Source: Polymorphobacter sp. (GTDB taxonomy: Bacteria; Pseudomonadota; Alphaproteobacteria; Sphingomonadales; Sphingomonadaceae). From it: 32,543 nucleotides of DNA. The stretch lies in contig NZ_JANYGL010000032.1 of the NCBI RefSeq assembly GCF_025362435.1, positions 1 to 32,543 on the forward strand, given 5' to 3'. The notes beneath the pieces were generated by a model, which did no database searches, had not been told where the DNA came from, and worked only from the letters and a program-made list of their open reading frames with translations. Below, piece after piece: positions 4,941 through 32,408 of this stretch (position 1 is its first letter; the number at the start of each line of letters is the position of its first letter). Made by a program: the position numbers and the translations under genes.

Positions 4941-5078
4941 GGCTCGCACGGGACGGCGCAACTCCAGCAGAGCAGGCACGATGCCCGGCGACAGTAGCAA
5001 CCGAATACGCAAGCCGACGCCGAGCGCGACCGCCTGACCTCCAGGCTCTCGCGGCGGCGGGCGGCCATGAGGGACACG

Positions 5079-6830: not shown

Positions 6831-6839
6831 GGTGCATCC

Positions 6840-10372: not shown

Positions 10373-11857
10373 ATGTCGATAGCGTTGATCGCCCTTGCGC
10401 TGGCGACGTCGCCGCCTGCAACTGACCGCGACACGAGCACGTGGTGGGCGACGACCAAGCTGTTGTCGAGCAACGCGATGGAGGGGCGGGACACCGGGTC
10501 GGCGGCGTACGAGCGCGCGGCGAGGGTCGTTGCCGCGCGGCTGGCGGCGGCGGGGGTCAAGCCGGCGGGTGACAATGGCAGCTGGTTTCAGCGCGTGTCG
10601 ATGGAGCAGGTGGCCTTGCCGAAGGCCGGTGTCCGGATCGCGGTCGACCGCACGCCGCTCGCTTTCCTCCACGATATCAACGTCGACGCCGCCCTCGACA
10701 TGCCGACCAGGCTCGACGCGGCAATCGCGTTTAGAGGCTATTGCGGCGACGCGCTGGGTGATGTTCGCGGCAAGATCGTCGTCTGCTGGGGGACGCATCG
10801 CCCCGGGCTGCCCGATGCGGCGGCACGGCTGAAAGCGGTTCGGGGCGGGGGCGCGGTCGGCATTCTTACTGTTGCCGACCCGGGGTTTACCGTCGAACCA
10901 CCGCGCTGGCCGTTCGCTTATGCGCGGTCGGTCTGGCTGGCGGGGAGCCCGCCGAAGCGCGAGGCGATGCTGATCGCGACGCTCAATGATGAGGCGCTTG
11001 GGCGAGTGATTGCGGGTTCGGGGCGTGATACAACGGGGCTGATCGCGGCGGGAACGGCCGGTGAGCCGCTGCCGAGTTTCGATGCTCCCGGGCGTTTCGT
11101 CGCGAGCTTCTCCCCGACACGGCGAACGCTAACCTCTTCGAATGTCGTCGGTTTGTTGCCCGGTTCGGACCCGGCGCTGGCGAAGCAGCATATCGTCCTG
11201 TCGGCGCATCTCGATGGCTATGGCTTCGGCGAGCCGGTCGATGGCGACGGGCTGTACAACGGGACGCTCGACGATGCCGCTTATGTCGCGCTGCTGATCC
11301 GGCTGGCCGAGCGGCGGCATGGGCAGGGGTATCACCGGCCGGTGCTGCTGGCTGCTTTCACCGGCGAGGAGAAGGGGTTGCTCGGGGCGCGCTGGTTCGT
11401 CGCGCATCCGACGGTGCCGCTCGCCACGATCGCCGCCGACATCAATCTCGACCAACTGCGGCCGATCTTCCCGCTCGAGCTGCTGACGGTCCATGCGCTC
11501 GACGACACCAGCCTTGGTATCGACGTCCGGGCGGTGGCGCTGGATATGGGTATCGCGGTGCAGAAGGACCCCGAGCCCGAGCGCAATTTGCTGCGGCGGG
11601 CGGACCAATGGCCGTTCCTCCAGGCGGGGGTCCCGGCGACGGCCTTCGTCTTCGGTTATCGCCCGGGAACGCCGAGCGAGCGCATCTACCGCCGCTGGTA
11701 TGTCACTGGGTATCACAAGCCGCAGGACGACACCGCACAACCGATGGACTGGACCGCTGCGGCGCGGTTCAATTCGTTCTTTTATCGCCTCGTCGACCGG
11801 GTCGCCGACCAGCCTTCAGGACCGTCGTGGCTGCCGGGAAGCACGCTCAGGCCGTGA
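10373..11857 (+). CDS. Secreted M28-family zinc aminopeptidase with PA-like insert
   Basis: Putative exported metallo-aminopeptidase, 494 residues. It opens with a short hydrophobic signal-like segment (2-16). Residues about 120-240 resemble the protease-associated (PA) insert common in M28 exopeptidases. The catalytic domain shows the family's metal set in order: His279 in SAHLDG, Asp300 in GTLDDAA, Glu332-Glu333 in TGEEKGLLGA (one is the general base), Asp360 in INLDQ and His448 in GYHKPQDD, so the two-zinc site looks complete. I chose ATG 10373 because GGGAGCAGG sits just upstream and the protein then begins with its signal sequence; an in-frame upstream ATG at 10298 adds 25 residues with no export features. 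Divergent from the S9 peptidase (129 bases between starts) and convergent with ligI. Confidence 0.92.
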   Translation: MSIALIALALATSPPATDRDTSTWWATTKLLSSNAMEGRDTGSAAYERAARVVAARLAAAGVKPAGDNGSWFQRVSMEQVALPKAGVRIAVDRTPLAFLHDINVDAALDMPTRLDAAIAFRGYCGDALGDVRGKIVVCWGTHRPGLPDAAARLKAVRGGGAVGILTVADPGFTVEPPRWPFAYARSVWLAGSPPKREAMLIATLNDEALGRVIAGSGRDTTGLIAAGTAGEPLPSFDAPGRFVASFSPTRRTLTSSNVVGLLPGSDPALAKQHIVLSAHLDGYGFGEPVDGDGLYNGTLDDAAYVALLIRLAERRHGQGYHRPVLLAAFTGEEKGLLGARWFVAHPTVPLATIAADINLDQLRPIFPLELLTVHALDDTSLGIDVRAVALDMGIAVQKDPEPERNLLRRADQWPFLQAGVPATAFVFGYRPGTPSERIYRRWYVTGYHKPQDDTAQPMDWTAAARFNSFFYRLVDRVADQPSGPSWLPGSTLRP

Positions 11858-11948
11858 TCCGTCCACGCGCACGCGTACCCGCACGCGGCCGCGCCACGTA
11901 GCGAACCGCGGGCTCCCGCTGTCGCCCATCCGGCACCGGCAATGCGGC

Positions 11949-13892
<1,944 letters not shown>

Positions 13893-13900
<8 letters not shown>

Positions 13901-14567
13901 AGGTCAGCCCCAGCGCCGCGAGCTTGCCGCGCATGTCGTACATGTCGAGCCCGAGTTCGCCGCCTGCGAGCCGGTTGCGCTTGTCGCCCTCGTTGGCTTC
14001 GCGCTTCTGCGCGGCGGCGAGGACGGTTGCGGCCTGTTCGCGCGGGACGACGCAGACCCCGTCGTCGTCGGCGACGATGACGTCGCCGGGCATGATCGCC
14101 GCCCCGGCGCAGACGATGGGCACGTTGACCGAGCCGAGCGAGGTCTTGATCGTGCCCTGTGCGAAGACCGCCTTCGACCATACCGGGAAGCCCATTTCGG
14201 TCAGGTCGCGGATGTCGCGGACCCCGGCGTCGATGATCAGGCCTCGACAGCCGCGCGCGATCGCCGAGGTCGCCAGCAGGTCGCCGAAATAGCCGTCCTC
14301 GCACGGGCTCGTCGGCGCGAGGACGATGATGTCGCCGGGCTGGACGAGTTCGATCGCGACGTGGAGCATCCAGTTGTCGCCCGGCGGGGCGCTGATCGTC
14401 ACCGCCGACCCGGCGATCCGCGCGCCGGGGTAGATCGGCCGCAGGCGGCTGGCGAGCAGCCCGGTCCGGCCCTGCGATTCGTGGACGGTGGCGACCCCGC
14501 ACGCGCCGAGCGCGTCGATGACGGCGGGATCGGCGCGCTCGATATGGCGTTTGACGAGTCCGGTCAT
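13893..14567 (-). CDS. ligK: 4-carboxy-4-hydroxy-2-oxoadipate aldolase / oxaloacetate decarboxylase LigK
   Basis: Class II aldolase with the RraA-like fold, 224 residues. It splits 4-carboxy-4-hydroxy-2-oxoadipate into pyruvate and oxaloacetate, the last step of the pathway, using a divalent metal. The metal and substrate loop is seen as [14 protein letters not shown] with Arg117 and Asp118, matching the Arg-Asp pair of characterised HMG/CHA aldolases. The conserved [12 protein letters not shown] and [13 protein letters not shown] segments are also present. I chose ATG 14567 because AGGGAG lies upstream at normal spacing and the length then fits the family; the longer frame to 14651 has unlike-family sequence. 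It is the first gene of the minus-strand ligK-ligU-ligI operon, divergent from the LysR-type regulator gene, with a 98-base control region between them. Confidence 0.95.
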
Positions 14568-14637
14568 CTGTCGCTCCCTAAGACAACCTTCCCCGTGCCG
14601 CTGCGACTGCGTGCGCCGCCAGTCACAGTTGCGGCTT

Positions 14638-14655
14638 TCGCATAAGTTCATGCTA
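14638..14655. promoter_or_regulatory. Candidate LysR-type operator between ligK and the regulator gene
   Basis: The 98-base divergent gap contains GCAT-AAGTTC-ATGC (14640-14653), a short dyad that also fits the T-N11-A pattern of LysR-family sites (T14643 to A14655). It lies just before the GTG start of the regulator, a usual place for an autoregulatory site. The 8-mer TCGCATAA at its left edge recurs at 21178-21185, upstream of the vanillin dehydrogenase gene. Confidence 0.4.
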
Positions 14656-16707: not shown

Positions 16708-19975
<3,268 letters not shown>

Positions 19976-19979
<4 letters not shown>

Positions 19980-21136
19980 AGACACAGGTCGCGATCATCG
20001 GCGCGGGCCCCGCAGGGCTCCTCCTCGGCCACGCGCTGCGGCAGGCCGGGATCGAGTGCGTCGTCGTCGAGCGGACCAGCCGGGCACGCGTCGAATCGCG
20101 TATCCGCGCCGGCATCCTCGAAACGACGATGACCGACCTGCTCACACGCCTCGGGCTCGACGCGCGGCTCAAGGTCGAGGGGATGCTCCACCATGGGCTG
20201 ACGCTGGTCAGCGACGGCAACGTCATCCCCGTCGATATCGCCGGGTCGACCGGCAAGCACGTCACGGCGTACGGCCAGACCGAGATCACCCGCGACCTGA
20301 TCGACGCCGCCCCCGCCGCCGGGCTCGACATCGTCTGGGAGGCGGGCGAGGTCGCGCTCCACGACGTCGACAGCGACCACCCGTCGCTCGGCTTCACCGT
20401 CGACGGCGTCGCCCGGACGATCGAATGCGACGTCATCGCCGGGTGCGACGGCTTCCACGGCCCGTCGCGCGCGGCGGTCGGCGGCACGCATTTCGAGCGC
20501 GCCTATCCGTTCGGCTGGCTCGGCGTCCTCGCCGATGTCGCGCCGTGCCACCACGAGGTCGTCTATGCCAGCCACGACCGCGGCTTTGCCCTCGCCTCGA
20601 TGCGCTCGCCGACGCGGAGCCGTTATTACGTCCAGGTGGGCAATGACGAGCGCGTCGAGGATTGGTCCGATGATCGCTTCTGGGACGAGCTCGAAACCCG
20701 CCTCGGCCCCGACATCGCCTGCGGCGTCACCCGTGGCCCGTCGATCGAGAAATCGATCGCGCCGCTGCGTTCGTTCGTCTCGGAGCCGATGCGACGCGGA
20801 CGGCTGTTCCTCGCCGGTGACGCCGCGCACATCGTCCCCCCGACCGGGGCGAAGGGGCTCAACCTCGCCGCGTCGGACGTCATCTACCTTTCGGAGGCGC
20901 TGATCGGCTGGTTCGCGCGCGGCGACACCGCCGGGGTCGACGGCTATTCGGCACGCGCGCTCCGCCGCATCTGGAAGACCGAGCGCTTCAGCTGGTATCT
21001 GACGACGCTGATGCACCGCTTTCCCGGCGCAGGAGCGTTCGAACGCCGGATGCAGGCGGCCGAACTCGATTATATCGCGACCTCGGCGGCGGCGCAGGCG
21101 AGCATCGCCGAGAATTACGTCGGACTGCCGCTATAA
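19976..21136 (+). CDS. pobA: 4-hydroxybenzoate 3-monooxygenase PobA (TTG start)
   Basis: Class A flavoprotein hydroxylase, 386 residues, making protocatechuate from 4-hydroxybenzoate with NADPH and O2. The alignment with Pseudomonas PobA is clear: FAD motif GAGPAG at 9-14, RIRAGILE at 42-49, CDGFHGPSR at 157-165 and GDAAHIVPPTGAKGLNL near the end. The substrate and proton-relay residues line up at an offset of four: Tyr197 (Y201), Ser208 (S212), Arg210 (R214), Tyr218 (Y222) and Tyr381 (Y385). No ATG fits the N-terminus: the protein must begin at MKTQVAIIGAG, which is encoded from TTG 19976. That TTG overlaps the ligC stop (TTGA), so translation is probably by coupled re-initiation. Last gene of the operon, feeding its product straight to LigAB. 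A gap of 72 bases follows. Confidence 0.96.
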
Positions 21137-21177
21137 CCTGCCAAAGCGGATTTGCAGCCACATCAATTTAAGCTATG

Positions 21178-21185
21178 TCGCATAA
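21178..21185. promoter_or_regulatory. Candidate regulatory site upstream of the aldehyde dehydrogenase gene
   Basis: The 72-base gap before the aldehyde dehydrogenase gene is AT-richer than its surroundings and contains TATG-TCG-CATA (21174-21184), a small dyad including the 8-mer TCGCATAA also found at 14638-14645 by the LysR gene. It may be a regulator site or promoter element; the shared 8-mer could be chance. Confidence 0.3.
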
Positions 21186-21208
21186 CAACTAAGACTGGGG
21201 AGTCGACG

Positions 21209-22654
21209 ATGACGCTTTCTGCAGCGATCGTGCCGAACGACAAAGCGGTTGCACACGCGACCTTCGACCGCCTCAACCCGGTCGACGGCAGCGTCGCGAC
21301 GACGATGCCGGCGGCGACCGTCGCCGATGCCAATGCTGCGGCCGATGCCGCAGCGGCGGCGTTTCCCTCATGGTCAGTCCTCGGCCCCAACGCCCGCCGC
21401 GCGCTGCTGATGAAGGCGGCGACCGCGCTCGAAGCCCGCGCGCCGCAGTTCGTCGACGCGATGATGGGCGAGATCGGTGCGACCGAGGGCTGGGCACGCT
21501 TCAACCTCGCGCTCGCCGCCGGCATGATCCGCGAGGCCGCAGCGCTGACCACGCAGATTTCGGGCGAGGTCATTCCGTCCGACAAGCCCGGCTGCATCGC
21601 CATGGCGCTGCGCGAACCGGTCGGCGTCGTCCTCGGCATCGCCCCGTGGAACGCCCCGATCATCCTCGGCGTCCGCGCGATCGCGGTGCCGCTCGCCTGC
21701 GGCAATACCGTCGTCCTCAAGGCGAGCGAGCAATGCCCGCGGACCCACAGCCTGATCGTCGAGGCCTTCGTCGAGGCCGGGCTGCCCGACGGCGCCGTCG
21801 GCATCGTCACCAACGCCCCCGCCGACGCCCCGGCGATCGTCGGCGCGCTGATCGACCACCCGGCGGTGCGGCGGATCAACTTCACCGGCTCGACCGCGGT
21901 CGGGCGGATCATCGCGCAGCGTGCCGCCGGACACCTCAAGCCGTGCCTCCTGGAACTCGGCGGCAAGGCGCCGCTGATCGTCCTCGACGACGCCGACCTC
22001 GACGAAGCGGTCAAGGCGGCGGCGTTCGGCGCGTTCATGAATTCGGGCCAGATCTGCATGTCGACCGAGCGGATCATCGTCCTCGATGCAGTCGCCGACG
22101 ACTTCGTCGCGCGGTTCAAGGCAAAGGTCGCGACGATGAAGGTCGGCAATCCGCGCGACGGCAACGCCCCGCTCGGCGCTGTGGTCGACCGCAAGACCGT
22201 CGACCATGTCCGCCACCTGATCGACGACGCCGTCGCGGCGGGTGCCGAACTCGTCACCGGCGGCGCGTCCGACGGCGTCCTGATGCCCGCGCACGTCGTC
22301 GACCGGGTCGTCCCCGCGATGGCGCTGTTCCGCGACGAGAGCTTCGGCCCGGTCGTCGGCATCACGCGTGCAAAGGACGAAGCCGAGGCGATAGTGCTGG
22401 CGAACGATACCGAATACGGCCTGTCGGCGGCGGTCTTCACCCGCGACACCGCGCGTGGCCTCCGCGTCGCCCGCCAGATCAAGTCGGGGATCTGCCACGT
22501 CAACGGCGCCACCGTCCACGACGAGGCACAGATGCCCTTCGGCGGGACCAAGTCGTCGGGCTATGGCCGCTTCGGCGGCAAGGCCGGGATCGACAGCTTC
22601 ACCGAACTGCGCTGGATCACGATCGAGACGCAGCCCGGACACTACCCCATCTGA
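21209..22654 (+). CDS. NAD-dependent aromatic aldehyde dehydrogenase (vanillin dehydrogenase type, LigV/Vdh)
   Basis: ALDH-superfamily enzyme of 481 residues, close in pattern to vanillin and salicylaldehyde dehydrogenases. Catalytic Cys283 lies in NSGQICMSTERI, general base Glu249 in LELGGKAP, the oxyanion Asn148 in APWNAPIILG and the cofactor motif FTGSTAVG at 225-232. Ending with MPFGGTKSSGYGRFGG is also typical of this group. ATG 21209 follows CTGGGGAG; the longer frame to 21152 would start inside the promoter region. With the hydratase/lyase gene 38 bases downstream it forms the usual pair that turns feruloyl- or p-coumaroyl-CoA into vanillate or 4-hydroxybenzoate, the latter being the PobA substrate. 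Whether vanillin, 4-hydroxybenzaldehyde or both are preferred cannot be read from sequence. Confidence 0.88.
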   Translation: MTLSAAIVPNDKAVAHATFDRLNPVDGSVATTMPAATVADANAAADAAAAAFPSWSVLGPNARRALLMKAATALEARAPQFVDAMMGEIGATEGWARFNLALAAGMIREAAALTTQISGEVIPSDKPGCIAMALREPVGVVLGIAPWNAPIILGVRAIAVPLACGNTVVLKASEQCPRTHSLIVEAFVEAGLPDGAVGIVTNAPADAPAIVGALIDHPAVRRINFTGSTAVGRIIAQRAAGHLKPCLLELGGKAPLIVLDDADLDEAVKAAAFGAFMNSGQICMSTERIIVLDAVADDFVARFKAKVATMKVGNPRDGNAPLGAVVDRKTVDHVRHLIDDAVAAGAELVTGGASDGVLMPAHVVDRVVPAMALFRDESFGPVVGITRAKDEAEAIVLANDTEYGLSAAVFTRDTARGLRVARQIKSGICHVNGATVHDEAQMPFGGTKSSGYGRFGGKAGIDSFTELRWITIETQPGHYPI

Positions 22655-22692: not shown

Positions 22693-23529
22693 ATGACCGA
22701 AACCAGCTCCAACGGGACCGTCGCCTACGACGTCGTCGATCGCATCGCGTGGGTCCGCTTCAACCGCCCCGACAAGCGCAACTGCATGTCGCCGACGCTC
22801 AACCGCGACATGCTCGAGGTTCTTGGCCTGCTCGAATTCCGCGACGACGTCGGGGTTCTCGTCCTTTCGGGCGAGGGCACCGCTTGGTCGGCCGGAATGG
22901 ACCTCAAGGAATATTTCCGCGAGACCGAGGCGAAGGGGCTCGGCGCGACGCGCGATGCGCAGCGCGAGGCGTATACGTGGTGGCGCCGCCTGCGCTGGTA
23001 CCAGAAGCCGACGATCGCGATGGTCAACGGCTGGTGCTTCGGCGGTGGTTACGGCCCGTTGTTCGCCTGCGACCTCGCCTTCGCCGCCGACGAGGCGCAG
23101 TTCGGCCTGTCGGAGATCAACTGGGGCATCCTCCCCGGCGGCGGCGCGACCAAGGTCGCGACCGAGCTGATGCCGATGCGCAAGGCGATGTATCACGCGA
23201 TGATGGGTGAGAACCTTGACGGCAAGATGGCCGCCGAGTGGGGCCTGGTCAATGAGTCGGTGCCCCTCGACGCGCTGAAGGACCGCGTCACCGCGGTCGC
23301 CGCCGTCCTGCTCAAGAAGAACCCGGTCGCGCTCAAGGCGACCAAGGACGCCGTCCGTCGCGTCGGCGTATTGAGCTACGACGACGCCGAGGATTATCTG
23401 ATCCGGGCGCAGGAAGCGGCGAACAGCTACGACAACCACGGCCGCAAGGAAGGCATCAAGCAGTTCATCGACGACAAGACGTTCAAGCCCGGCCTCGGGG
23501 CGTACGACACCTCGAAGCAGCGCGGCTAG
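22693..23529 (+). CDS. p-Hydroxycinnamoyl-CoA hydratase/lyase (feruloyl-CoA hydratase/lyase, FerB/Ech/HCHL type)
   Basis: Crotonase-fold enzyme of 278 residues that hydrates feruloyl-, caffeoyl- or p-coumaroyl-CoA and cleaves it to acetyl-CoA and the aromatic aldehyde. It is strongly similar to Pseudomonas HCHL: RPDKRNCMSPTLNRDML, AGMDLKEYFRE, VNGWCFGGGYGPLFACDL, FGLSEINWGI and KQFIDDKTFKPGL. The catalytic Glu is Glu141 (E143 in HCHL), and Tyr235 matches the substrate-binding Y239. The position equal to Ser123 of HCHL is Gly121 here. The ATG has AGGGA upstream. The feruloyl-CoA synthetase gene that usually accompanies it is not in the window. A strong hairpin follows the stop. Confidence 0.94.
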   Translation: MTETSSNGTVAYDVVDRIAWVRFNRPDKRNCMSPTLNRDMLEVLGLLEFRDDVGVLVLSGEGTAWSAGMDLKEYFRETEAKGLGATRDAQREAYTWWRRLRWYQKPTIAMVNGWCFGGGYGPLFACDLAFAADEAQFGLSEINWGILPGGGATKVATELMPMRKAMYHAMMGENLDGKMAAEWGLVNESVPLDALKDRVTAVAAVLLKKNPVALKATKDAVRRVGVLSYDDAEDYLIRAQEAANSYDNHGRKEGIKQFIDDKTFKPGLGAYDTSKQRG

Positions 23530-23568: not shown

Positions 23569-23642
23569 CGGGCGATCGGGTCGATGTGACAGGGTGACGG
23601 CGCTGGGACTGCGAGGCAGTGCTTTCGATAGAGGAGTCGGCC

Positions 23643-24959
23643 ATGCGAACTGACATTGTTCGGGCCGCACGCCGGGCGGGACCGATCTGCGTCGCGCTTA
23701 TGCTAGCTGGTGCCACGCTGACGCCGGGGGCCGCGGCGCAATCGCCGGGCGCTCCGCGATCAGAGACGGGTGAGCTCGCCGATGGCGCAAGCTGGCGCGC
23801 GACGGTGCCGCCGAACTGGAACGGCACGCTGCTATTGTGGTCGCACGGCTATGCCCGGACGCGCCCGGCGGCGGAGGATGCGCCCGCGGCGTCGCGCGAG
23901 GCGCTGCTCGCCGCCGGCTATGCCATTGCCGGATCGAGCTATGCCGAGGGCGGCTGGGCGCTGGCGACGGCGGTGCCCGACCAGGAGGCGACGATCGCGG
24001 CGTTCACGCAGCGGTTCTCGAAGCCGAAGCGGACGATCGCGTGGGGCTATTCGATGGGCGCGCTGGTGACGGTCGCGCTCGCCGAGCGGCCGAGCCGGCT
24101 GCTCGACGGCGCATTGCCGATGTGCGGGTCGATCGGCGGCGCCGTCGGCATGATGAACATGGCGCTCGACGGCGCCTATGCTTTCCGCACGCTGCTGGCA
24201 CCCGACTCGGCGATCCGGCTGACCGGCGTCGACGACGACCTCGTCAACGCCAAGCGCGTCGCCGCCGTTCTCGCCGCAGCGCAGGCGACCCCGGCGGGGC
24301 GTGCACGCACTGCGCTCGCGGCGGTGCTTGCCGGGCTGCCCGGGTGGACGACGCACGACGGCTCGCGCCCGGGCGACGACGATGCGACCGCGCAGGAAGC
24401 CGAGATGGCGAAGACCTTCGCGATGGGGACCTTCCTGCCGCGCGTCGACCAGGAGCAACGCGCGCGCGGGGTGTTCTCGTCGAACGCCGGCATCGATTAC
24501 CGGGCGCAGCTCCAGCTGTCCGAGCGGCGAGCGCTCGTCGCGAAGCTGTACGCCGCCGCCGGGCTCGATCTCGACCGCGATCTCGATGCCCTCAACGCTG
24601 GACAGCGCGTGTCCGCCGATCCGGCCGCGACGCGCTACATGCTCGACAATTATACGCCGAACGCCAAGCCGGTGGTGCCGACGCTGGCGGTGCAGAATAT
24701 CGGCGACGGCCTGACCTCGCCGTCGCTCCAGCGGGCGTATCTCGACGCGGCTGAGCACCGCGCGCCGAAGATGGCGAGCGGCCTGTGGGTCGCGGCGGCA
24801 GGCCATTGCACCTTCACGACCCCGACCGTCCTCGCCTCGCTCCACCAGCTCGAAGCGCGCCTCGACACGGGCAAGTGGCCCGCGCCCCCGGCGGGGTTCG
24901 TCGCCTACGTGCCCCCGCCGATGCTGCGCCCGTGCATCCGCGACAGTGCCTGCCGCTAG
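23643..24959 (+). CDS. Secreted alpha/beta hydrolase, substrate unknown
   Basis: Exported hydrolase of 438 residues with an N-terminal signal peptide (hydrophobic 14-32, ending in GAAAQ). The alpha/beta hydrolase core shows the oxyanion loop LLLWSHGY (63-70), nucleophile Ser137 in WGYSMGA and a C-terminal catalytic His in AAAGHCTF. An insert between about 175 and 330 would form a lid. GAGGAG stands at ideal spacing before the ATG. It is downstream of the ferulate genes but separated by a terminator-like hairpin. An exported esterase that frees hydroxycinnamates from plant material would fit the neighbourhood, but the sequence does not show that directly: it is not a tannase-fold feruloyl esterase by its motifs. 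It ends one base from the convergent next gene. Confidence 0.82.
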   Translation: MRTDIVRAARRAGPICVALMLAGATLTPGAAAQSPGAPRSETGELADGASWRATVPPNWNGTLLLWSHGYARTRPAAEDAPAASREALLAAGYAIAGSSYAEGGWALATAVPDQEATIAAFTQRFSKPKRTIAWGYSMGALVTVALAERPSRLLDGALPMCGSIGGAVGMMNMALDGAYAFRTLLAPDSAIRLTGVDDDLVNAKRVAAVLAAAQATPAGRARTALAAVLAGLPGWTTHDGSRPGDDDATAQEAEMAKTFAMGTFLPRVDQEQRARGVFSSNAGIDYRAQLQLSERRALVAKLYAAAGLDLDRDLDALNAGQRVSADPAATRYMLDNYTPNAKPVVPTLAVQNIGDGLTSPSLQRAYLDAAEHRAPKMASGLWVAAAGHCTFTTPTVLASLHQLEARLDTGKWPAPPAGFVAYVPPPMLRPCIRDSACR

Positions 24960-24960
24960 G

Positions 24961-25923
24961 TCAGTCTATACCCTTCTTGCGGACGGTCCATGCCTTGTCG
25001 GTGCACAGGCGGCAGTCGGCGCCCTTGAACCAATGCGCTGCAGCGGGATCGCCGCGAAGCTGCCAGTCGAGCCACGCGACCGCAACCTGCGCGTTCTCGC
25101 CGCCGTTCGCTTGTCCAAAGGTCCCGCCATGCCCGGTGTCGTGGCTGAGGAGCATCGCGGGGACGACGGTGATCTTGTCGAAGTCGTCGCTGCCGTTGGG
25201 CCAGGCGACGTCGGTGGTGCCGCCCATGACGTAGAGCACCGGCGTGTGCAGCGTCTTGAGCAGGCTCTTGTCGACTTTGATCCCGGCGATCGGGTTGCCG
25301 CCGTCGGTGAAGACGCCGCTGTTGTGGATGATCACCGCATGGATGCGCGAATCGGCGGCGAGCTGGAGCGCCTGCAATCCGCCGCAGCTATGCCCCGAGA
25401 CTGCAACCAGCGCCGGGTCGATGCGGTGATACAGCGGGCTCCCCGAGCGGTTGTTTTCGGCGAGCGCCCAGTCGACCCCGGCGGCGACTTGCGCTGAAGT
25501 CGTCTTGATGCCGAGCGGGGCGGGGGCCGACTGGGCAGGGCGCGACGGGGATCCCGGTCCCGACAGGACGCTGCCGGGGGCGATGACGACATAGCCGTGG
25601 CTGGCGATTTCAGCGAGGTGCTGGCGCGCGCTCGCGGCGTCGTCGCTGCAGCCGCCATTGGCCCAGGCGAGGATGCCGAGCTTGCGTGCGCCTAGCCGCG
25701 ACGGGTCGGCGGGAAGATAGACGACATGGTCGGGCAGTCCCGGCTCGACGGTCTTGATCGCGGGGTAGGGACCCGTCCCGGGCGTGTCGGGCATCGCGTC
25801 GGCCGCGGCGCGTGCAGCAGCCATGCGCGCCATGTCGGCGGGCGGCATCACCGGCACCGGCTGAGCGTAAGCCGCGCCCGCCAGCGTTGCTGCGGCAAAA
25901 GCCGCTTGGATCCATCCCCGCAT
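24961..25923 (-). CDS. Secreted alpha/beta hydrolase of the dienelactone-hydrolase-like type
   Basis: Exported hydrolase of 320 residues with a clear signal peptide (1-20, ending AAYAQ). Visible features are the oxyanion strand ILAWANGGCSDD (84-95), the nucleophile elbow GHSCGG with Ser179 at 177-182, and the acid/His region GGTTDVAWPN and SHDTGHGG further on; a Cys pair near the end (DCRLC) may form a disulfide. I chose ATG 25923 because GGAG lies eight bases upstream and the protein then starts with its signal peptide. Its upstream region holds a near-consensus LacI-type operator (25975-25988), so it is probably controlled by the adjacent LacI regulator together with the P450 operon. Substrate unknown; an exported esterase or lactonase is likely. 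Confidence 0.83.
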   Translation of the reverse strand: MRGWIQAAFAAATLAGAAYAQPVPVMPPADMARMAAARAAADAMPDTPGTGPYPAIKTVEPGLPDHVVYLPADPSRLGARKLGILAWANGGCSDDAASARQHLAEIASHGYVVIAPGSVLSGPGSPSRPAQSAPAPLGIKTTSAQVAAGVDWALAENNRSGSPLYHRIDPALVAVSGHSCGGLQALQLAADSRIHAVIIHNSGVFTDGGNPIAGIKVDKSLLKTLHTPVLYVMGGTTDVAWPNGSDDFDKITVVPAMLLSHDTGHGGTFGQANGGENAQVAVAWLDWQLRGDPAAAHWFKGADCRLCTDKAWTVRKKGID

Positions 25924-25974
25924 CACGCTTCTCCGTCTTGTTATGCCGCAATACTGTTCGGCACCCGACACTGA

Positions 25975-25988
25975 TGCAAGCCCTTTCA
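25975..25988. promoter_or_regulatory. LacI-family operator (one mismatch) upstream of the alpha/beta hydrolase
   Basis: TGCAAGCCCTTTCA matches the LacI-family consensus TGNAANCGNTTNCA at all fixed positions except one (CC instead of the central CG). It lies 51 bases before the hydrolase start on the minus strand and touches the stop codon of lacI, so it probably serves the hydrolase promoter. It repeats the half-site TGCAAG found in the perfect site at 27039-27052. Confidence 0.6.
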
Positions 25989-27005
25989 TGCACTTTCGCG
26001 GGCGATGATGCGGAAGCCGACGTCGATCGAGCGCTCGGCCAGTTTGGTCCCGGCGGCGCGCAATCTCAGGACGCGATTGACCTCGTGGGCGATGCGCGTG
26101 CCGTCGACATCGACCGAGGTTATCGTCGGCCGCATGTCGCCGGCCATCCGCAAATTGCCGAATCCGGTCACCGCCAGCCGCCCGGGTACGGCGACCCCGG
26201 CGACCTGCGCTTCGACGATCAGCCCCTGCGCGATCCAGTCCGAGCCGCAGACGACGACGTCGGGCTGGACCGCGAGGTCGGCGAGGCCGCGGTAGCTCTG
26301 CCGCCCCTGGCCGAAGTGACTCGGCACGGCGACCTCGAAGCGGGTCGGCGCGTCCCCGCCATTCGCGACCCAGCGCTCGGCGAACGCGGCGGCGCGACGT
26401 TCGGCTCGGGTCGAGCGCGGCACGATCATATGCGGCCGCCGATACCCCCGGTCGCGGAGGAACTCGGCGAGCGCATAGCCGATCGCGCGATGCGAGAAAC
26501 CGATCGCGATATCAATCGGATCGTCGGGCAGGCCCCAGGTCTCGATCACCGTCACCCGGCTGTTGCGCAGCTGTGCCCGGATCGCGGCGTCGGCGACGAT
26601 TCCGGTCAGGATGATCGCATCGACCCGCCGCGACAGCGCGGCGTTGATCTGAGCGACGAGGCGGGCGTCGGTCGTTCCGGTCAGCGCGAGGATGACGCTG
26701 TTGCCCTCGGCGGACAGCGCGTCGATCATCGCTTCCATCGTGTCGTTGAAGATGGACTGGGCGATGTCGGGGACAAGTGCCGCGATCAGCCGCGACCGGC
26801 TCGACGCGAGCGCGCCCGCGGTCAGGTTCGGCAAATACCCGGTCGCCGCGATCGCCGCCTCGATCCGCTGCGCCGTTGCCGGTGCGACGACGCCGGGAGA
26901 GTTGAAGTAGCGCGAGACCGTCGCCGAGGAGACGTTGGCGACGGCGGCGACCTCCTCGAGGCGGGGCGCGCGGGTGCGGTCGGTGGGCGGCATTCCACTC
27001 GGCAT
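25986..27005 (-). CDS. LacI-family transcriptional regulator
   Basis: LacI/GalR-type repressor of 339 residues. The N-terminal headpiece has the expected HTH and hinge: PRLEEVAAVANVSSATVSRYFNSP at about 14-37, then IEAAIAATGYLPNLTAGAL. The rest is a two-lobe periplasmic-binding-like domain (ALVPDIAQSIFNDTMEAM, VDAIILTG, VVVCGSDWIAQGL, VTGFGNLRMAG). Members close to this bind small effectors, often sugars or sugar acids, but aromatic and other ligands occur. It is divergent from the P450 operon with 68 bases between starts; a perfect LacI operator lies there and a near-perfect one lies just after its own stop, upstream of the hydrolase. The gene therefore probably represses both neighbours and itself. 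No good ribosome site precedes ATG 27005; an in-frame ATG four codons later is an alternative. Confidence 0.92.
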   Translation of the reverse strand: MPSGMPPTDRTRAPRLEEVAAVANVSSATVSRYFNSPGVVAPATAQRIEAAIAATGYLPNLTAGALASSRSRLIAALVPDIAQSIFNDTMEAMIDALSAEGNSVILALTGTTDARLVAQINAALSRRVDAIILTGIVADAAIRAQLRNSRVTVIETWGLPDDPIDIAIGFSHRAIGYALAEFLRDRGYRRPHMIVPRSTRAERRAAAFAERWVANGGDAPTRFEVAVPSHFGQGRQSYRGLADLAVQPDVVVCGSDWIAQGLIVEAQVAGVAVPGRLAVTGFGNLRMAGDMRPTITSVDVDGTRIAHEVNRVLRLRAAGTKLAERSIDVGFRIIARESA

Positions 27006-27038: not shown

Positions 27039-27052
27039 TGCAAGCGCTTACA
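27039..27052. promoter_or_regulatory. LacI-family operator, perfect consensus, between lacI and the P450 operon
   Basis: TGCAAGCGCTTACA fits TGNAANCGNTTNCA at every fixed position and carries the central AAGCGCTT palindrome; an overlapping palindrome GCTTGCAAGC runs just to its left. It lies 22 bases before the P450 ATG and 34 bases before the lacI start, well placed to repress both. Confidence 0.78.
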
Positions 27053-27073: not shown

Positions 27074-28252
27074 ATGTCGGATGACTTCAACCCCCTTTTG
27101 CCCGAAACCTTCGACAGCGCACAGGTCGAATATCGCGGCCTGCGCGAGACCTGCCCGGTCGCGCATAGCGATACCTGGGGCGGCTTCTGGGCGCTGATGA
27201 AGCACGACGATGTCGTCGCGGCGGCGACCGACTGGCGGACATTCCAGACGTCGAAGCAGAATGTCGTGCCGAAGGTCGCCTTCACCGGCCGCCGCCCGCC
27301 GCTCCACCTCGATCCGCCCGAGCACACGCCGTATCGCCGCGCGCTCGCGCCGCTGCTGACCGAAAAGCGCGTTGCCCGGCTCGAGCCAGTGATGCGCGAG
27401 ATCTGCCGCGGACTGGTGGCGACGATGGTCGCACGCGGCGGCGGCGACGTCTGTGCCGATTATTCGGCGCCGATGCCGGTCGCGATCTTCGCGCACTGGA
27501 TGAACCTCGACGCCGTGGCGATCGAGGCGCTGACGGACGCCGGACGACGTTATAATATCGCGGTCCAGTCGGCCGACCTCGAGACGACCAAGGCAACCAG
27601 CCTGTTGCTCTACGATATGGCGAGGCAGGTCGTCGCCGACCGCCGCGCCGCGCCGCTGCCAATCGACGAGGATGCGACGAGTGCGCTGCTCGCCGCTCGC
27701 GACGACGGCGAGCCGCTGCCCGACGATATGATCGTCGGCACGATCCGGCAGGTCCTCGTCGTCGGGTTGATCGCGCCGAGCGTGATGATCGGATCGATCG
27801 CGGTCCACCTCGCCCGCGATCAGGAACTCCAGTCGCGCCTGCGCGCCGCCCCCGAACTGCTGCCCGACGCGATCGACGAGCTGCTGCGGCTTTATACGCC
27901 GTATCGCGGCTTCGCCCGCACCGCGACCCACGACGTCACGATCCGCGGCCGGACGATCCCTGCCGGTGAGCCGATCGCACTCGTCTATTCCTCGGCGAAC
28001 CGCGACGAGGACGTCTTCGAGCAGGCCGACACCTTCCGCATCGATCGTCCGAACATGAAGGACTCCGTTGCCTTCGGCCGGGGTCCGCATTCGTGCGTCG
28101 GCGCCGCGCTCGCCCGCCTCGAACTGATCGTCGCGGTCGACGAGCTGCTCAAGGCCGCACCGTCGTTCTCGCTCGCCGGCGAACCTGCGCCGACGCGCTT
28201 CCCCGAGATCGGCGCGCTGCGCGTGCCTATCACCTTCGGCGCCCTCGCTTGA
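27074..28252 (+). CDS. Cytochrome P450 with atypical I-helix
   Basis: Soluble bacterial P450 of 392 residues. The C-helix region reads HLDPPEHTPYRR (78-89), the ExxR motif is Glu269-Arg272 in DELLRLYTP, and the haem loop is FGRGPHSCVGAALAR with ligand Cys341. Unusually, the I-helix segment that normally reads AGxETT is VGLIAPSV (230-237): the acidic residue is Ile233 and the following Thr is Ala234, so the acid-alcohol pair that delivers protons for O2 activation is missing, with a Pro in its place. Such enzymes may use substrate-assisted or peroxide-type chemistry. ATG 27074 follows ACGGGG. First gene of an operon with CapA and membrane-protein genes, with a perfect LacI operator upstream. 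No ferredoxin or reductase is nearby. Substrate unknown. Confidence 0.93.
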   Translation: MSDDFNPLLPETFDSAQVEYRGLRETCPVAHSDTWGGFWALMKHDDVVAAATDWRTFQTSKQNVVPKVAFTGRRPPLHLDPPEHTPYRRALAPLLTEKRVARLEPVMREICRGLVATMVARGGGDVCADYSAPMPVAIFAHWMNLDAVAIEALTDAGRRYNIAVQSADLETTKATSLLLYDMARQVVADRRAAPLPIDEDATSALLAARDDGEPLPDDMIVGTIRQVLVVGLIAPSVMIGSIAVHLARDQELQSRLRAAPELLPDAIDELLRLYTPYRGFARTATHDVTIRGRTIPAGEPIALVYSSANRDEDVFEQADTFRIDRPNMKDSVAFGRGPHSCVGAALARLELIVAVDELLKAAPSFSLAGEPAPTRFPEIGALRVPITFGALA

Positions 28253-29370
28253 CCGCGATCGTCCTCGCCACCGGCGACCTCGCGATGGACCGCGCCGATT
28301 ACGACGAGAGCTTCGTCGCGACGCGCGACGTCCTGTCGGCGGCGGACATCGTCTTCGGCCAGCTCGAGACGAGCTTCGCGGCGCATGGCACGCGCCTGCC
28401 GCAGGCGCGCCATGCCGTCCTCGCGCGGCCCGAAGGCGCAGCTGCCCTTGGGCGGGCCGGCTTCGACGTCATCTCGTGCGCCGGCAACCACGTCCTCGAC
28501 TGGGGCAACGAAGCCTTTGCCGAGACGCAGCGCCACCTGCGCGATGCCGGGATGCAGGTCGTCGGGGCCGGACCAGATATCGCCGCCGCGCGGACGCCGG
28601 CGCGCTTCACCCTGCCCGACGGGACGACGGTCGCCTTCCTTGCTTATTCGAGCATCCTGCCGCAGGCGTATTGGGCCGAGGAGCGCCGCCCCGGCTGCGC
28701 GCCGATGCGCGCGTTCACCGTCTACGAGCAGATCGAGCACGACCAGCCCGGAACGCCGCCTCGCATCCATACCTACCCCCATCGCGGCGACCTTGCGGCG
28801 ATGGTTGCGGACATCCGCGCGGCCAAGGCGGCGAACGACGTCGTCATCGTGTCGCAGCACTGGGGCATTCATTTCGTACGGGCGAGCATCGCCGACTATC
28901 AGCGCGACGTCGCCCGCGCCGCGATCGAGGCAGGGGCCGACATCATCCTCGGCGGCCACGCGCACATCCTCAAGGGCTGCGAGCTGATCGACGGCAAGCC
29001 GGTGTTCTACTCGCTGTGCAACTTCGCGACCGACCTGCGGATGGACCCGGCGCACGCCGCATCGGCAAGCTTCAACGAAATCCGCGCGCTGGCCGAAGTG
29101 TGGGAGCCCGATTTCGACAGCCTGTACAACTTCCCCGACGCCGCGCGCGCATCGATGGTCGCGCGCTTCGAGATCGCCGACGGCAAGGTCGTCCGCGCCG
29201 GCTTCCTGCCGCTCGACATCGGCACCGACGCCGTTCCGCGCTTTGCAGCGCCCGGGTCGGCACGCCATGCCGAGATCGTCGACTACATGACCGCCGTCAC
29301 CGCCGAGGCCGGGCTCAACGCCCGCTACCGCAGCGGTGTCGACATGGTCGAGCTGGATCTTGCAGCATGA
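28249..29370 (+). CDS. CapA-family metallophosphoesterase-like protein (TTG start)
   Basis: A 373-residue protein of the CapA/PgsA (PGA_cap) group, which shares the calcineurin-type metallophosphoesterase fold. The metal motifs are in order: ATGDLAM (7-13) in the first strand, QLETSF, CAGNHVLDWG, VSQHWGIHF and GGHAHILKG. The first strand begins before any ATG, so the only suitable start is TTG 28249, which overlaps the P450 stop (TTGA); a later ATG would remove the GD motif. CapA is known for poly-gamma-glutamate capsule synthesis, but relatives occur beside catabolic genes with undefined roles. No signal peptide is seen, so it appears cytoplasmic, unlike capsule CapA. Its TGA overlaps the ATG of the next gene. 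A hydrolase acting on a product of the P450 reaction is one possibility. Confidence 0.85.
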   Translation: MTAIVLATGDLAMDRADYDESFVATRDVLSAADIVFGQLETSFAAHGTRLPQARHAVLARPEGAAALGRAGFDVISCAGNHVLDWGNEAFAETQRHLRDAGMQVVGAGPDIAAARTPARFTLPDGTTVAFLAYSSILPQAYWAEERRPGCAPMRAFTVYEQIEHDQPGTPPRIHTYPHRGDLAAMVADIRAAKAANDVVIVSQHWGIHFVRASIADYQRDVARAAIEAGADIILGGHAHILKGCELIDGKPVFYSLCNFATDLRMDPAHAASASFNEIRALAEVWEPDFDSLYNFPDAARASMVARFEIADGKVVRAGFLPLDIGTDAVPRFAAPGSARHAEIVDYMTAVTAEAGLNARYRSGVDMVELDLAA

Positions 29371-30392
29371 GCGCGCGGCGCGCTTTCCCGCTCGAGGCGT
29401 ATGTCGGGATCTATTTCCTCGTCTATCTGCCCAACGTCATCATCACCAAGCTGATCACCAGCCTGCCGCGCGGAGCCGGGATCCCGCCGCTGACCGGCCT
29501 CGAAACCCTGCCCGCATCGCTGATCCTCAACGCCATTTTGACCTACATCTTCATCTGGCTGGCCGGCTGGTATCGCGACGCCCACACCGTGACCGTCGCC
29601 GGACGGACGCTGCCGGTGCCGACGCGTTACACCGTGCTGTCGGGGATCGGGACGGCGCTGGTGCTGTTCACCGTGCCGCTGTCGTTCACCTTCAAGGGTG
29701 TCAGCATCCCGTTCATCCAGCTGCTGATGCGCGGCGATATCCTCGTCATCGCGCCGCTGGTCGACCTGATCTTCGGGCGTCGCGTCCGCTGGTGGAGCTG
29801 GACCGCGCTCGCGCTCGTCGCGGTTGCGCTGGCGATCACGCTGCACGATCGCGGCGGGCTCAAGCTGCCGCCGCTCGCGATCCTGACCGTCGTCCTCTAC
29901 ACGCTCGGCTACTTCATCCGCCTCGCGGTGATGACCCGCATCGCCAAGACCGGCGAGCCCGCCTCGATCCGCCGCTACTTCGTCGAGGAGAAGATGGTCG
30001 CGCTGCCGCTGTCGGTGCTGATCCTCGCAGGGATTTCGGCGTCGGGCTTCGGCGGCCAGTCGGGCGAGCTCGGCTTCGGTTTCATCACCATCTGGAGCGA
30101 CCCGGTGATGATCTGGATCGCCCTGATTGCGGTAACGCTGACAGCGATCTCGATCTTCTCGGCGATAATCCTGCTCGACGCCCGCGAGAACGCCTATTGC
30201 GTCCCGCTCGAACGCGCTTCGAGCCTGCTCGCCGGCATCTTCGGGTCGATCCTCCTCGCCTGGTGCTGGGGGTTGCGCATGCCCAACTCCGCCGAGCTCA
30301 CCGGCGCGGTCATCCTGATCGCCGCGATCGTGTTGCTGTCGGTCGCACCGCGGTTCGGCGCCAGCCGACGCGCACTCGCCGAGACACAATAG
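29367..30392 (+). CDS. Multi-pass membrane protein, DMT/EamA-like
   Basis: Integral inner-membrane protein of 341 residues with about ten hydrophobic segments. The stretch VSIPFIQLLMRGDILVIAP followed by LVDLIFGRRVRWWSWTAL resembles the inner repeats of drug/metabolite transporter (EamA/DMT) proteins, where a first half of about five helices ends with this kind of loop. The match is by pattern only; other membrane families remain possible. The ATG overlaps the CapA-type stop (ATGA), making it the third gene of the P450 operon. A carrier for the operon's substrate or product is the natural guess. I do not recognise a characterised homologue. Confidence 0.7.
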   Translation: MSARRAFPLEAYVGIYFLVYLPNVIITKLITSLPRGAGIPPLTGLETLPASLILNAILTYIFIWLAGWYRDAHTVTVAGRTLPVPTRYTVLSGIGTALVLFTVPLSFTFKGVSIPFIQLLMRGDILVIAPLVDLIFGRRVRWWSWTALALVAVALAITLHDRGGLKLPPLAILTVVLYTLGYFIRLAVMTRIAKTGEPASIRRYFVEEKMVALPLSVLILAGISASGFGGQSGELGFGFITIWSDPVMIWIALIAVTLTAISIFSAIILLDARENAYCVPLERASSLLAGIFGSILLAWCWGLRMPNSAELTGAVILIAAIVLLSVAPRFGASRRALAETQ

Positions 30393-30464: not shown

Positions 30465-32408
30465 ATGAAGACCATTCGCTACAATCGACGGACCGCGACG
30501 CTTGCCGGAAGCGCGCTGGCGCTCGTCCTCGCGGCCCCTGCGTTCGGCCAGACGGCGCAGCCGCGCGATCAGGCCGTGCCCGATGCCGCGGCCGCCGCCA
30601 CGGCTTCACCCGCCGCCGCCGCGCCGCTGCCCGATGCAGCCGCTGAATCCGACATCGTCGTCACCGGCAGCCGCATCCGCGGCGTCACCGCGACCGGCTC
30701 GAACGTCATCGCCATCGACCAGGCGAAGATCGCCGAGGAGCCGGTGATCTCGACCAACGACCTCCTCCGCCGCCTGCCGCAGGTCGTCGGCCTCGGCACC
30801 AACCGCAACGGCGGCGCGGCTCAGAACGGCCAGGCCAATGCCACCCGCGGCGCCGGCATCAACCTGCGCGGCATCGGCACCAACGCGACGCTGCTGCTGT
30901 ACGACGGCAAGCGCTTTCCGCCGCAGGGCACGCAGGGTCAGTACACCGACCCCGCGGTCCTGCCGTCGATCGCCCTCGAGCGCGTCGAAGTCGTCGCCGA
31001 CGGCGCCTCGGCGATCTACGGGTCCGACGCGATCGCCGGCGTGGTCAACTTCATCCTGCGCAAGAAGCTCGACGGCGCCGAGTTCCGGCTGCGCAGCGGC
31101 CTGACCGAAGAGGGCTATAACGAGCAGCAGGCCGCCGCCATCGTCGGCAACACGTGGAGCACCGGCTCGGCGATGCTCGCGGGCGAATATACCCGCAACG
31201 ACGCGCTGATCGCCGGCGACCTACCGTTCTACAAGGATAACAATGTCAGCCGCGGCGGCCGCGATCTGCGGACGACCTTCTGCAATCCCGGGACGATCTC
31301 GGCGGGCGGCAGCACCTATGCGATCCCGGCGGGCGGCGTGACGCGCGCGAACGTCGGCTCGCTCACTGCCGGGACCGCCAACCGGTGCTTCTACAATACC
31401 AACGACGCGGTCATCCCGCAGCAGCAGCGCGTCAGCGCCGTCGGCAACTTGAGCCAGCAGATCGGCGACCGTATCCGCGTCTTCGCCGACGGCTATTATT
31501 CGTACCGCGAGGGTATCGACCTCGGGACCGGCGACACCTTCACCGCGACGGTGCGCAACACCAACCCGTTCTTCGTCTCGCCGGTGCCGGGCCTGACCTC
31601 CGAAACGGTCAACTACTCTCTGCTTCCCGAGCTTGGCGCCAACCGCAATCACTTCCATAGCTATTCGTGGAACCTGTCCGGCGGCGTCGAAGCCAAGCTC
31701 TTCGGCGACTGGGTGGCGACGGCCTATTATGCGCACGGCGAGTCGAAGGACATCGCCGACCGTCGCCTCGGGGTGAATTCCTCGGCGCTCGCAGCCGCGC
31801 TTGCCGATACCAACCCGGCAACCGCGCTCAACGTCTTCGGCGGCCCGAACAACCCGGCCACGTTGGCGCGGATCCACGACAACTACTTCATCATCGCCGG
31901 TGCGACGCGGCTCGATGTCGGCAACGTCCAGTTCGCCGGGTCGCTGTTCAGCCTTCCCGGCGGCAACGTCCGCGTCGCGGTCGGCGGCGAATATCGCAAG
32001 GAATACACCTTCACCGACCTGACTGTCGGCAGCAGCGTGGCGCAGGCGCACATCAAGGACGCAGGGTCGCGCAACGTCAAGGCGGGCTTCGGCGAGTTGT
32101 ACGTGCCGATCTTCGCCGGACCGAATGCCATCGACGGCATCCAGGAACTATCGCTGTCGCTCGCCGGACGCTACGAACATTACAGCGACTTCGGCGACAC
32201 GACGAACCCCAAGGTCGGCGTGACCTATCGCCCGGTTTCCGGCGTCACCTTCCGCGGCAGCTACGGCACGTCGTTCCGCGCCCCGACCTTCACCGAGGTG
32301 TCGACCGTCGCTGGTGGTGCCGGGCTGTATTACGACACGCTTCCCGGTGCCGGGGGCAACCTGACCGGCATCGGCATCGCCGGCGGTAATCCCAAGCTCA
32401 AGCCTTAG
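30465..32408 (+). pseudogene. TonB-dependent outer-membrane receptor, C-terminus lost to an IS insertion
   Basis: The visible 647 residues include a signal peptide (1-29, ending APAFGQ), an Ala/Pro-rich spacer, a TonB-box-like DIVVTGSRIRG (63-73), the plug domain (about 80-200: VISTNDLLRRLPQVV, RGIGTNATLLLYDGKR, VEVVADGASAIYGSDAIAGVVNF) and much of the beta barrel, up to TFRGSYGTSFRAPTFTEVS and GGNPKLKP. Complete receptors of this kind continue after that motif with several more strands and end in an aromatic residue; here a TAG follows at once and IS-type sequence begins. The missing barrel end should stop assembly, so this allele is probably inactive unless the rest lies beyond the IS. GGGGAG precedes the ATG. 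It follows the P450 operon by 72 bases and may have been its uptake receptor. Confidence 0.9.

Follow-up and report, generated by a model that had tools for sequence, protein, structure and literature searches.

The P450–CapA–DMT genes and their recurrence

Three genes coding for a cytochrome P450, a CapA-family enzyme and a membrane protein of the DMT superfamily lie head to tail at positions 27,074 to 30,392 of contig NZ_JANYGL010000032.1 from Polymorphobacter sp. (GCF_025362435.1). The whole stretch of 32,543 nucleotides, which is the entire contig C3 of genome G000 in our numbering, was analysed and is referred to below as the window. The genes overlap by four bases each, namely by TTGA at 28249–28252 (P450 and CapA) and by ATGA at 29367–29370 (CapA and the membrane protein), and both their coordinates and their overlaps agree exactly with an initial annotation made from the sequence alone. 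That annotation regarded the trio as the module. The three genes are real and overlapping, but the natural unit turned out to be larger and also holds genes for an MmgE/PrpD-family protein and a tannase.

A divergently oriented gene for a LacI/GntR-type regulator precedes the P450 gene. The best NCBIfam model for this regulator, TransRegGNTRPSEAE, scored 197.5 bits, which is under its cut-off of 400. The predicted operator in front of the P450 gene matched TGYAAGCGCTTRCA with 0 mismatches, and the window contained 2 matches at up to 2 mismatches compared with a mean of 0.06 in shuffled sequences. At the same tolerance, the operator was found in all 23 divergent lacI–P450 gaps (two of these, from L149 and L031, probably represent a single genome) and in 3 of the 9 other arrangements, which gives 26 of 32 overall. 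The local LacI control suggested initially is thus supported by a regulator confirmed by Pfam and by an operator conserved before the P450 gene, and the regulator presumably acts as a repressor.

The recurrence of the genes was examined in 396 Sphingomonadales genomes using E-value cut-offs of 1e-70 for CapA, 1e-50 for the membrane protein and 1e-80 for the P450. CapA was found in 17 genomes, the P450 in 20 and the membrane protein in 15. All 17 genomes with CapA also contained the P450, which was present in 3 of the remaining 379, and 14 of the 17 contained the membrane protein. The genes therefore go together in the same genomes, as had been supposed, and the lack of co-occurrence that the initial annotation would have taken as a refutation was not seen. 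The Fisher test for the co-occurrence of CapA and P450 gave p = 4e-27, a value inflated by shared ancestry, as genomes and loci were treated as independent. The P450 without CapA was seen in G033, G522 and G621 and the membrane protein without CapA in G621. Where the CapA and P450 genes were not adjacent, approximately 3 to 19 kb separated them; G500 was the exception, with the two genes on different contigs. Among 289 genomes drawn from the class, two contained the membrane protein, and G000 was one of these. It should be noted that the P450 of this clade in G621 (C12:222494–223660, locus L145) has one internal TGA, while the DMT protein is kept and no CapA was detected at the threshold; this cluster is possibly decaying.

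A scan of named genomes for CapA resulted in 91 confirmed stretches, the best 80 of which (79 distinct loci) were used for counting the neighbouring genes by tblastn thresholds. This sample overlaps with the genome sample, since G525/L031, G533/L048, G688/L014 and G417/L033 are probably the same genomes. As the loci extend at most 7 kb from CapA, gene absences carry little weight in these counts. The MmgE/PrpD gene was present in 57 loci, the membrane protein in 51, the P450 in 35, the tannase in 32, the receptor in 29 and the regulator in 28. The CapA and membrane protein genes were adjacent in 48 loci and the strict trio, with gaps shorter than 120 bases between the matches, was found in 16, which means that CapA and the membrane protein often stand together without an adjacent P450. 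The adjacency of the trio exceeds chance.

Predicted structures and active sites

The predicted model of the CapA-family enzyme (pLDDT 91.6) was compared with solved structures. Its best fold matches were four entries of MslH (E-values of 3e-27 to 7e-28, TM scores of 0.81–0.82 by query length, 23% identity), whereas phosphatases matched at 5e-8 or weaker with TM scores by query of at most 0.47. MslH is a lasso-peptide C-terminal tryptophan epimerase (PDB 8gq9, 8gqb, 8itg and 8ith). According to its description (PMC10406935), the dyads D11–H295 and H88–D91 surround a Ca ion with the ligands E44, N87, H259 and H261. The dyads given there are matched in CapA by D10–H239 and H81–D84, which are invariant in 35 aligned members; D11 and D10 correspond by position only, outside the printed alignment. 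Three of the four metal ligands named in the same text, E44, N87 and H259, are matched by E40, N80 and H204, likewise invariant among the 35. The signature YEQIEHDQPGTP was found in 80 of the 88 rows with at least 63% identity, in 32 of 38 at 44.5–63% and in 2 of 22 below, as counted by ungapped text match on rows that include copies of the same genome.

CapA has no N-terminal membrane anchor in either its sequence or its model, because the first strand starts at residue 3. The initial description of a cytoplasmic-looking CapA-family metallophosphoesterase thus holds for the family and for the missing anchor, but the fold is nearer to the epimerase MslH than to the phosphoesterases. An alternative, in keeping with the name of its superfamily, is that CapA is a metallo-hydrolase acting on an ester, an amide or a phosphoester and feeding the P450. 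The invariant residues D10, E40, N80, H81, D84, H204, H237 and H239 also fit a metallophosphoesterase-like site, and a 5'-nucleotidase and purple acid phosphatases occur among the lower fold matches. Since MslH, an epimerase (PMC10406935), lies far ahead of these phosphatases (approximately 1e-27 versus 5e-8), we consider a hydrolase unlikely.

A second CapA, approximately 35% identical, is encoded in another operon (L095, G000:C16:6000–25999, and L099, 1402–12924) together with a TonB receptor, a TRAP importer, two CoA-transferases III, a 2-hydroxyacyl-CoA dehydratase-like protein and hydrolases. The more distant CapA members on plasmids were inspected for hints of the substrate. Their neighbours were mixed (3-isopropylmalate dehydratase subunits, tartrate dehydrogenase, allantoinase and TRAP/TTT importers) and not decisive, being suggestive of carboxylate catabolism in general.

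The P450 keeps the heme-ligand cysteine loop FGRGPHSC and the ExxR motif (DELLR). In P450s, the acid–alcohol pair of the I-helix delivers protons for oxygen activation. At this position, all 48 aligned relatives with at least 45% identity have G[LIM][IVM]AP; these rows cover at least 300 residues each and include the copy of the window and near-duplicates. Three other rows at 30–35% identity are without the AP motif. In the window, VVGLIAP aligns with VVAGNETT of CYP125MRCA, so that LIAP stands opposite NETT. Nine P450 models of NCBIfam were matched and none reached its cut-off, the best scoring 121.4 bits versus 850; membership in a characterised CYP family with a known substrate unrelated to the neighbours, which the initial annotation had named as a refutation, was thus not observed. 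No ferredoxin or reductase gene was recognised adjoining the P450, small frames not being included in the search. The best solved relatives of the P450 were generic and gave no indication of its substrate.

The membrane protein matched no Pfam family, even at an E-value of 0.5. Its model (pLDDT 83.8) was most similar to SLC35B1, with TM scores of 0.63 by query and 0.72 by target, followed by Vrg4, the triose-phosphate translocator and, lower down, LicB. The DMT-like character proposed initially is therefore confirmed by the fold. Other importers were also counted in the 79 loci: an Opp-type permease was present in 12, an SBP_bac_5 binding protein in 14, a TRAP large permease in 4 and a MatC-like carrier in 1. 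The DMT protein was found in 51 loci and an Opp-type or MatC-like importer in 16 others, and no locus had both; 3 had TRAP only and 9 had none of these. A lineage effect is possible behind this exclusivity, as Opp-type and MatC-like importers were present in none of the 49 loci with CapA of at least 63% identity. Full exclusivity against TRAP importers, first tested with DctM only, was withdrawn after a TRAP binding-protein gene was found in 7 of the 51 DMT loci. These seven genes are 71–100% identical to the TRAP gene in the second CapA operon of strain ES2-1 (L099). The fold and the lack of sharing with Opp-type and MatC-like importers make the DMT protein a probable inner-membrane importer of the substrate acid, although this argument is less than perfect.

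In 8 of the 79 loci (L058, L059, L062, L067–L070 and L077), a PFL-like glycyl radical enzyme was encoded near CapA. These loci come from Spirochaetes, Deltaproteobacteria, Dehalococcoidia (4), Gammaproteobacteria and Sterolibacterium, and most of these lineages are anaerobic. The domains PF02901 and PF01228 were detected on the L058 enzyme; six of the eight loci contained MmgE/PrpD and six an activase, which passed the model TIGR02494 in L067. The glycyl radical loop RVAGY was seen in 8 of 11 copies; two others are cut by the locus end and that of L062 is without it. Eight of the 11 copies have GC[LI]D as their active-site motif, and the second copies of three Dehalococcoidia loci have GCLE. 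The motif aligns with GCVE of glycerol dehydratase, and the GCxE pattern usual for eliminases is absent from the majority of copies. Of the 79 loci, 33 contained the P450 without the glycyl radical enzyme, 6 the glycyl radical enzyme without the P450, 2 both and 38 neither; the two were encoded together in L059, L068 and G043. This distribution is suggestive of a replacement of the P450 by the glycyl radical enzyme in some lineages.

The wider operon and neighbouring genes

In G005, which belongs to the same genus, the regulator gene is followed in order by those for P450, CapA, the membrane protein, the receptor, the tannase, MmgE/PrpD and MarR. In G000, the C-terminal 228 amino acids of the receptor, the tannase and MmgE/PrpD were located at the edge of contig C65. 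We infer that C3 and C65 are neighbours in G000 because these genes are contiguous in G005. The CapA, DMT protein, receptor, tannase and MmgE/PrpD genes also stand together on annotated plasmids of Novosphingobium and Croceicoccus.

The nearby TonB receptor of the initial annotation is indeed present, but it is broken by the end of an IS5-family element. Over 639 amino acids, the truncated receptor shares 90% identity with its intact counterpart in G005. The frame of the truncated receptor stops at 32408 because the IS5-family end starts at approximately 32404. Of the 49 plasmid records that matched this repeat, the five listed carry the annotation IS5 family transposase there. The receptor may thus be disrupted in the organism of the window. 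Contig C65 ends with the receptor remainder plus a stretch repeated at the start of C24. The features of the window are collected in Table 1.

Table 1. Features of the window, with the matches on which each assignment is based
Feature	Position	Strand	Basis
4-oxalomesaconate tautomerase	12818..13900	-	NF033377, 525.3 bits (cut-off 440)
4-carboxy-4-hydroxy-2-oxoadipate aldolase (LigK)	13893..14651	-	TIGR02798, 386.5 bits (cut-off 304.5)
Protocatechuate 4,5-dioxygenase beta-type subunit (LigB)	18178..19020	+	NF009903, 533.9 bits (cut-off 317)
4-hydroxybenzoate 3-monooxygenase	19976..21136	+	TIGR02360, 582.6 bits (cut-off 538.7); residues 156-541 of the frame from 19511
Aldehyde dehydrogenase, probably for (hydroxy)benzaldehydes	21152..22654	+	PF00171
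p-Hydroxycinnamoyl-CoA hydratase/lyase	22702..23529	+	NF006588, 454.6 bits (cut-off 276)
Exported DUF6351 tannase-like hydrolase, recurrent in the cluster	23619..24959	+	PF19878, 2.7e-4, 20.1 bits (below cut-off 22.4)
Exported alpha/beta hydrolase, recurrent in the cluster	24961..25989	-	Weak PETase/Chlorophyllase/DLH matches, all below cut-off
LacI/GntR-type regulator	25986..27005	-	PF13377, PF00356
LacI-family operator (predicted)	27039..27052	+	TGCAAGCGCTTACA, near-palindromic; ends 21 bases 5' of the P450 start codon
Cytochrome P450, soluble	27074..28252	+	392 aa; PF00067 at 3.5e-24
CapA-family enzyme	28249..29370	+	373 aa, TTG start; PF09587 (PGA_cap), 1.4e-62, 211.9 bits
DMT-superfamily membrane protein	29367..30392	+	341 aa
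TonB-dependent receptor, N-terminal part only (~646 codons), interrupted	30465..32403	+	PF07715, PF00593
IS5-family element end at the contig edge	32404..32543		100% repeat at G000:C75, 86% at C153

The exported hydrolase noted initially is accompanied by a second, tannase-like one. The alpha/beta hydrolase has a hydrophobic N-terminus from an internal ATG (by eye) and its homologues adjoin the cluster elsewhere, while homologues of the tannase-like hydrolase, mostly 53–61% identical, are found in many loci. The tannase on C65 (L097, 13709–15253) has a hydrophobic N-terminus and the motif GCSGGGRQ (both by eye) and is 71% identical to the cluster tannases; a Pfam tannase was also detected on L036. 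With the receptor, the exported esterases and the tannase, the uptake–hydrolysis–oxidation layout envisaged in the initial annotation is present.

The window lyase is 80% identical to the lyase of the Croceicoccus cluster, where this gene and one for an acetate-CoA-ligase-family protein lie approximately 6.6 to 9.6 kb after MmgE/PrpD. Relatives of the aldehyde dehydrogenase from the same cluster were at least 73% identical in 19 sources, its own source and the window (76%) being counted, and three more were 35–36% identical. Many Novosphingobium clusters adjoin genes for a secreted-looking protein of ~260 amino acids and a protein of ~505 amino acids with two CxxCH motifs (by eye). This pair (L019 10514–11464, L028 13369–14892 and homologues) had no Pfam match at 1e-4, and a second TonB receptor gene adjoins it. 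Positions 5067–8132 of the window code for a permease with BPD_transp_1 domains and an ABC ATPase with an AAA-associated C-terminal domain, which are unrelated to the trio.

Proposed pathway and comparison with known systems

The gene content points to a catabolic module. We propose that the trio forms the cytoplasmic core of a LacI-repressed operon for the degradation of an ester-linked, probably hydroxycinnamate-type plant compound, and assign this reading a probability of roughly 0.43. Hydroxycinnamate esters are favoured because hydroxycinnamate and protocatechuate genes lie upstream of the trio and a lyase gene belongs to the Croceicoccus cluster. The TonB receptor would take up the ester and the exported tannase/feruloyl-esterase-like enzymes would split it. 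The aromatic part could then pass through the hydroxycinnamoyl-CoA lyase, the aldehyde dehydrogenase and the 4-hydroxybenzoate hydroxylase to protocatechuate 4,5-cleavage. Meanwhile, the other carboxylic acid would enter via the DMT protein and be converted by the P450, CapA and MmgE/PrpD. For CapA, metal-dependent acid/base chemistry at the carbon next to the carboxylate is conceivable, as an epimerase or isomerase similar to MslH, and for MmgE/PrpD a dehydration or an epimerisation. The P450 would make an oxygen-dependent cut, for which the relatives in anaerobic lineages may use the glycyl radical enzyme instead.

Several observations weigh against this proposal. The strict trio is limited to 16 of the 79 loci, and 38 have neither P450 nor glycyl radical enzyme within the locus DNA. 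The lyase was found in 5 sources and LigB in 3 (the window and L093 of the same genus are within both counts), so the link of the hydroxycinnamate and Lig genes to the trio may be local. Operons of Rhodobacterales and Devosia, which contain an Opp importer, CapA, MmgE/PrpD and P450, show no recurring esterase cluster. In CapA, an invariant G206 takes the place of the MslH metal ligand H261, and the additional invariant H237 suggests a metal site more like that of phosphatases. Finally, 7 of the 51 DMT loci also contain a TRAP binding-protein gene, and in these the importer is not necessarily the DMT protein.

A broader version of the same proposal is a widespread undescribed pathway in which two unrelated enzymes break the same bond, namely the P450 without the proton-delivery pair in aerobes and the Asp-variant glycyl radical enzyme in anaerobes. 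CapA would then be the first MslH-type epimerase with a catabolic role, and the MmgE/PrpD enzyme would be new. We regard this combination as possible but rather doubtful.

Alternatively, the pathway could serve to free a small carboxylate of a methyl or alkyl group, with the P450 as an O- or N-demethylase. In that case, the glycyl radical enzyme would break the same C–O or C–N bond by elimination, and the ester and aromatic genes would be lineage-specific additions. In agreement with this, the nearest solved glycyl radical enzymes are mostly C–O or C–N eliminases (glycerol dehydratase, choline lyase and hydroxyproline dehydratase), but the active-site Glu of eliminases is Asp in 8 of the 11 copies. 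In L080 (Maritimibacter, 11170–13124), the P450 gene is followed by genes for a zinc alcohol dehydrogenase and an esterase of PF00756, which may be a glutathione-linked formaldehyde pair. Among the loci examined, this pair was seen in L080 alone, and formaldehyde release was therefore dropped as a mark of demethylation. We find such a demethylation pathway unlikely, much as we do the hydrolytic role of CapA discussed above.

DMT proteins include drug and metabolite exporters, and the genes could instead form a detoxification cassette in which a toxic compound is altered by the P450 and CapA and leaves the cell through the DMT protein. The TRAP importer gene in seven DMT loci would agree with efflux, but Opp-type or MatC uptake genes adjoin CapA in the 16 loci without the DMT protein, and the receptor and tannase belong to the same operon in G005, which makes the cassette improbable. 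A secondary metabolite cluster, for instance for a lasso-like peptide that CapA would epimerise, the P450 tailor and the DMT protein export, would suit the relation to MslH but was rejected as very improbable, since among five genomes the lasso leader-protease domain PF13471 was absent from G000 and G043 and lay on another contig or more than 1.6 Mb away in G005, G667 and G525, and since the recurrent neighbours scanned were receptors, exported esterases, substrate-binding proteins and CoA enzymes.

The initial annotation knew of no described system with this composition, and none was found in the literature searched, most subscription papers lying outside its coverage. To us, the gene set appears undescribed, and so do the P450 motif and, without a search dedicated to its motif, the glycyl radical variant. 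Annotation routinely assigns a capsule function to CapA-family genes, whereas the clade of the trio is found in what resembles a catabolic operon, next to a P450 or a glycyl radical enzyme. If the catabolic reading is correct, it would give a function to a misnamed CapA family and reveal a P450 clade with unusual oxygen chemistry. It would also mean that one reaction has both an oxygen-dependent and an oxygen-free solution, a pairing that can be tested.

Compared with known systems, the P450 has CYP125-, CYP130- and P450cin-type soluble bacterial P450s among its best solved relatives by sequence. It shares the cysteine and ExxR with them and differs in the AP replacing the acid–alcohol pair and in reaching no characterised NCBIfam family. 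CapA has the PF09587 domain in common with the CapA/PgsA poly-gamma-glutamate proteins, but no capsule gene was seen among the annotated neighbours of its cluster, and a classical capsule role was rejected in view of the missing anchor and the catabolic-looking neighbours. From MslH it differs in its own invariant YEQIEHDQPGT stretch, in the lack of a lasso protease nearby and in its catabolic-looking operon. The DMT protein shares the fold of SLC35B1, the triose-phosphate translocator and the choline importer LicB, but differs in having no Pfam match. The MmgE/PrpD protein belongs to the same family as IDS-epimerase and cis-aconitate decarboxylase, the nearest solved structure being IDS-epimerase (2hp0), and one member scanned matched the NCBIfam PrpD model weakly (48.7 bits versus 950). 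The lyase, aldehyde dehydrogenase, 4-hydroxybenzoate hydroxylase and Lig genes upstream in the window are those of hydroxycinnamate catabolism feeding protocatechuate 4,5-cleavage; to our knowledge, the P450, CapA, DMT and MmgE/PrpD proteins are not part of that pathway. Each protein is a member of a known superfamily, and the whole is of a known kind, namely a catabolic operon with a receptor, esterases and an importer.

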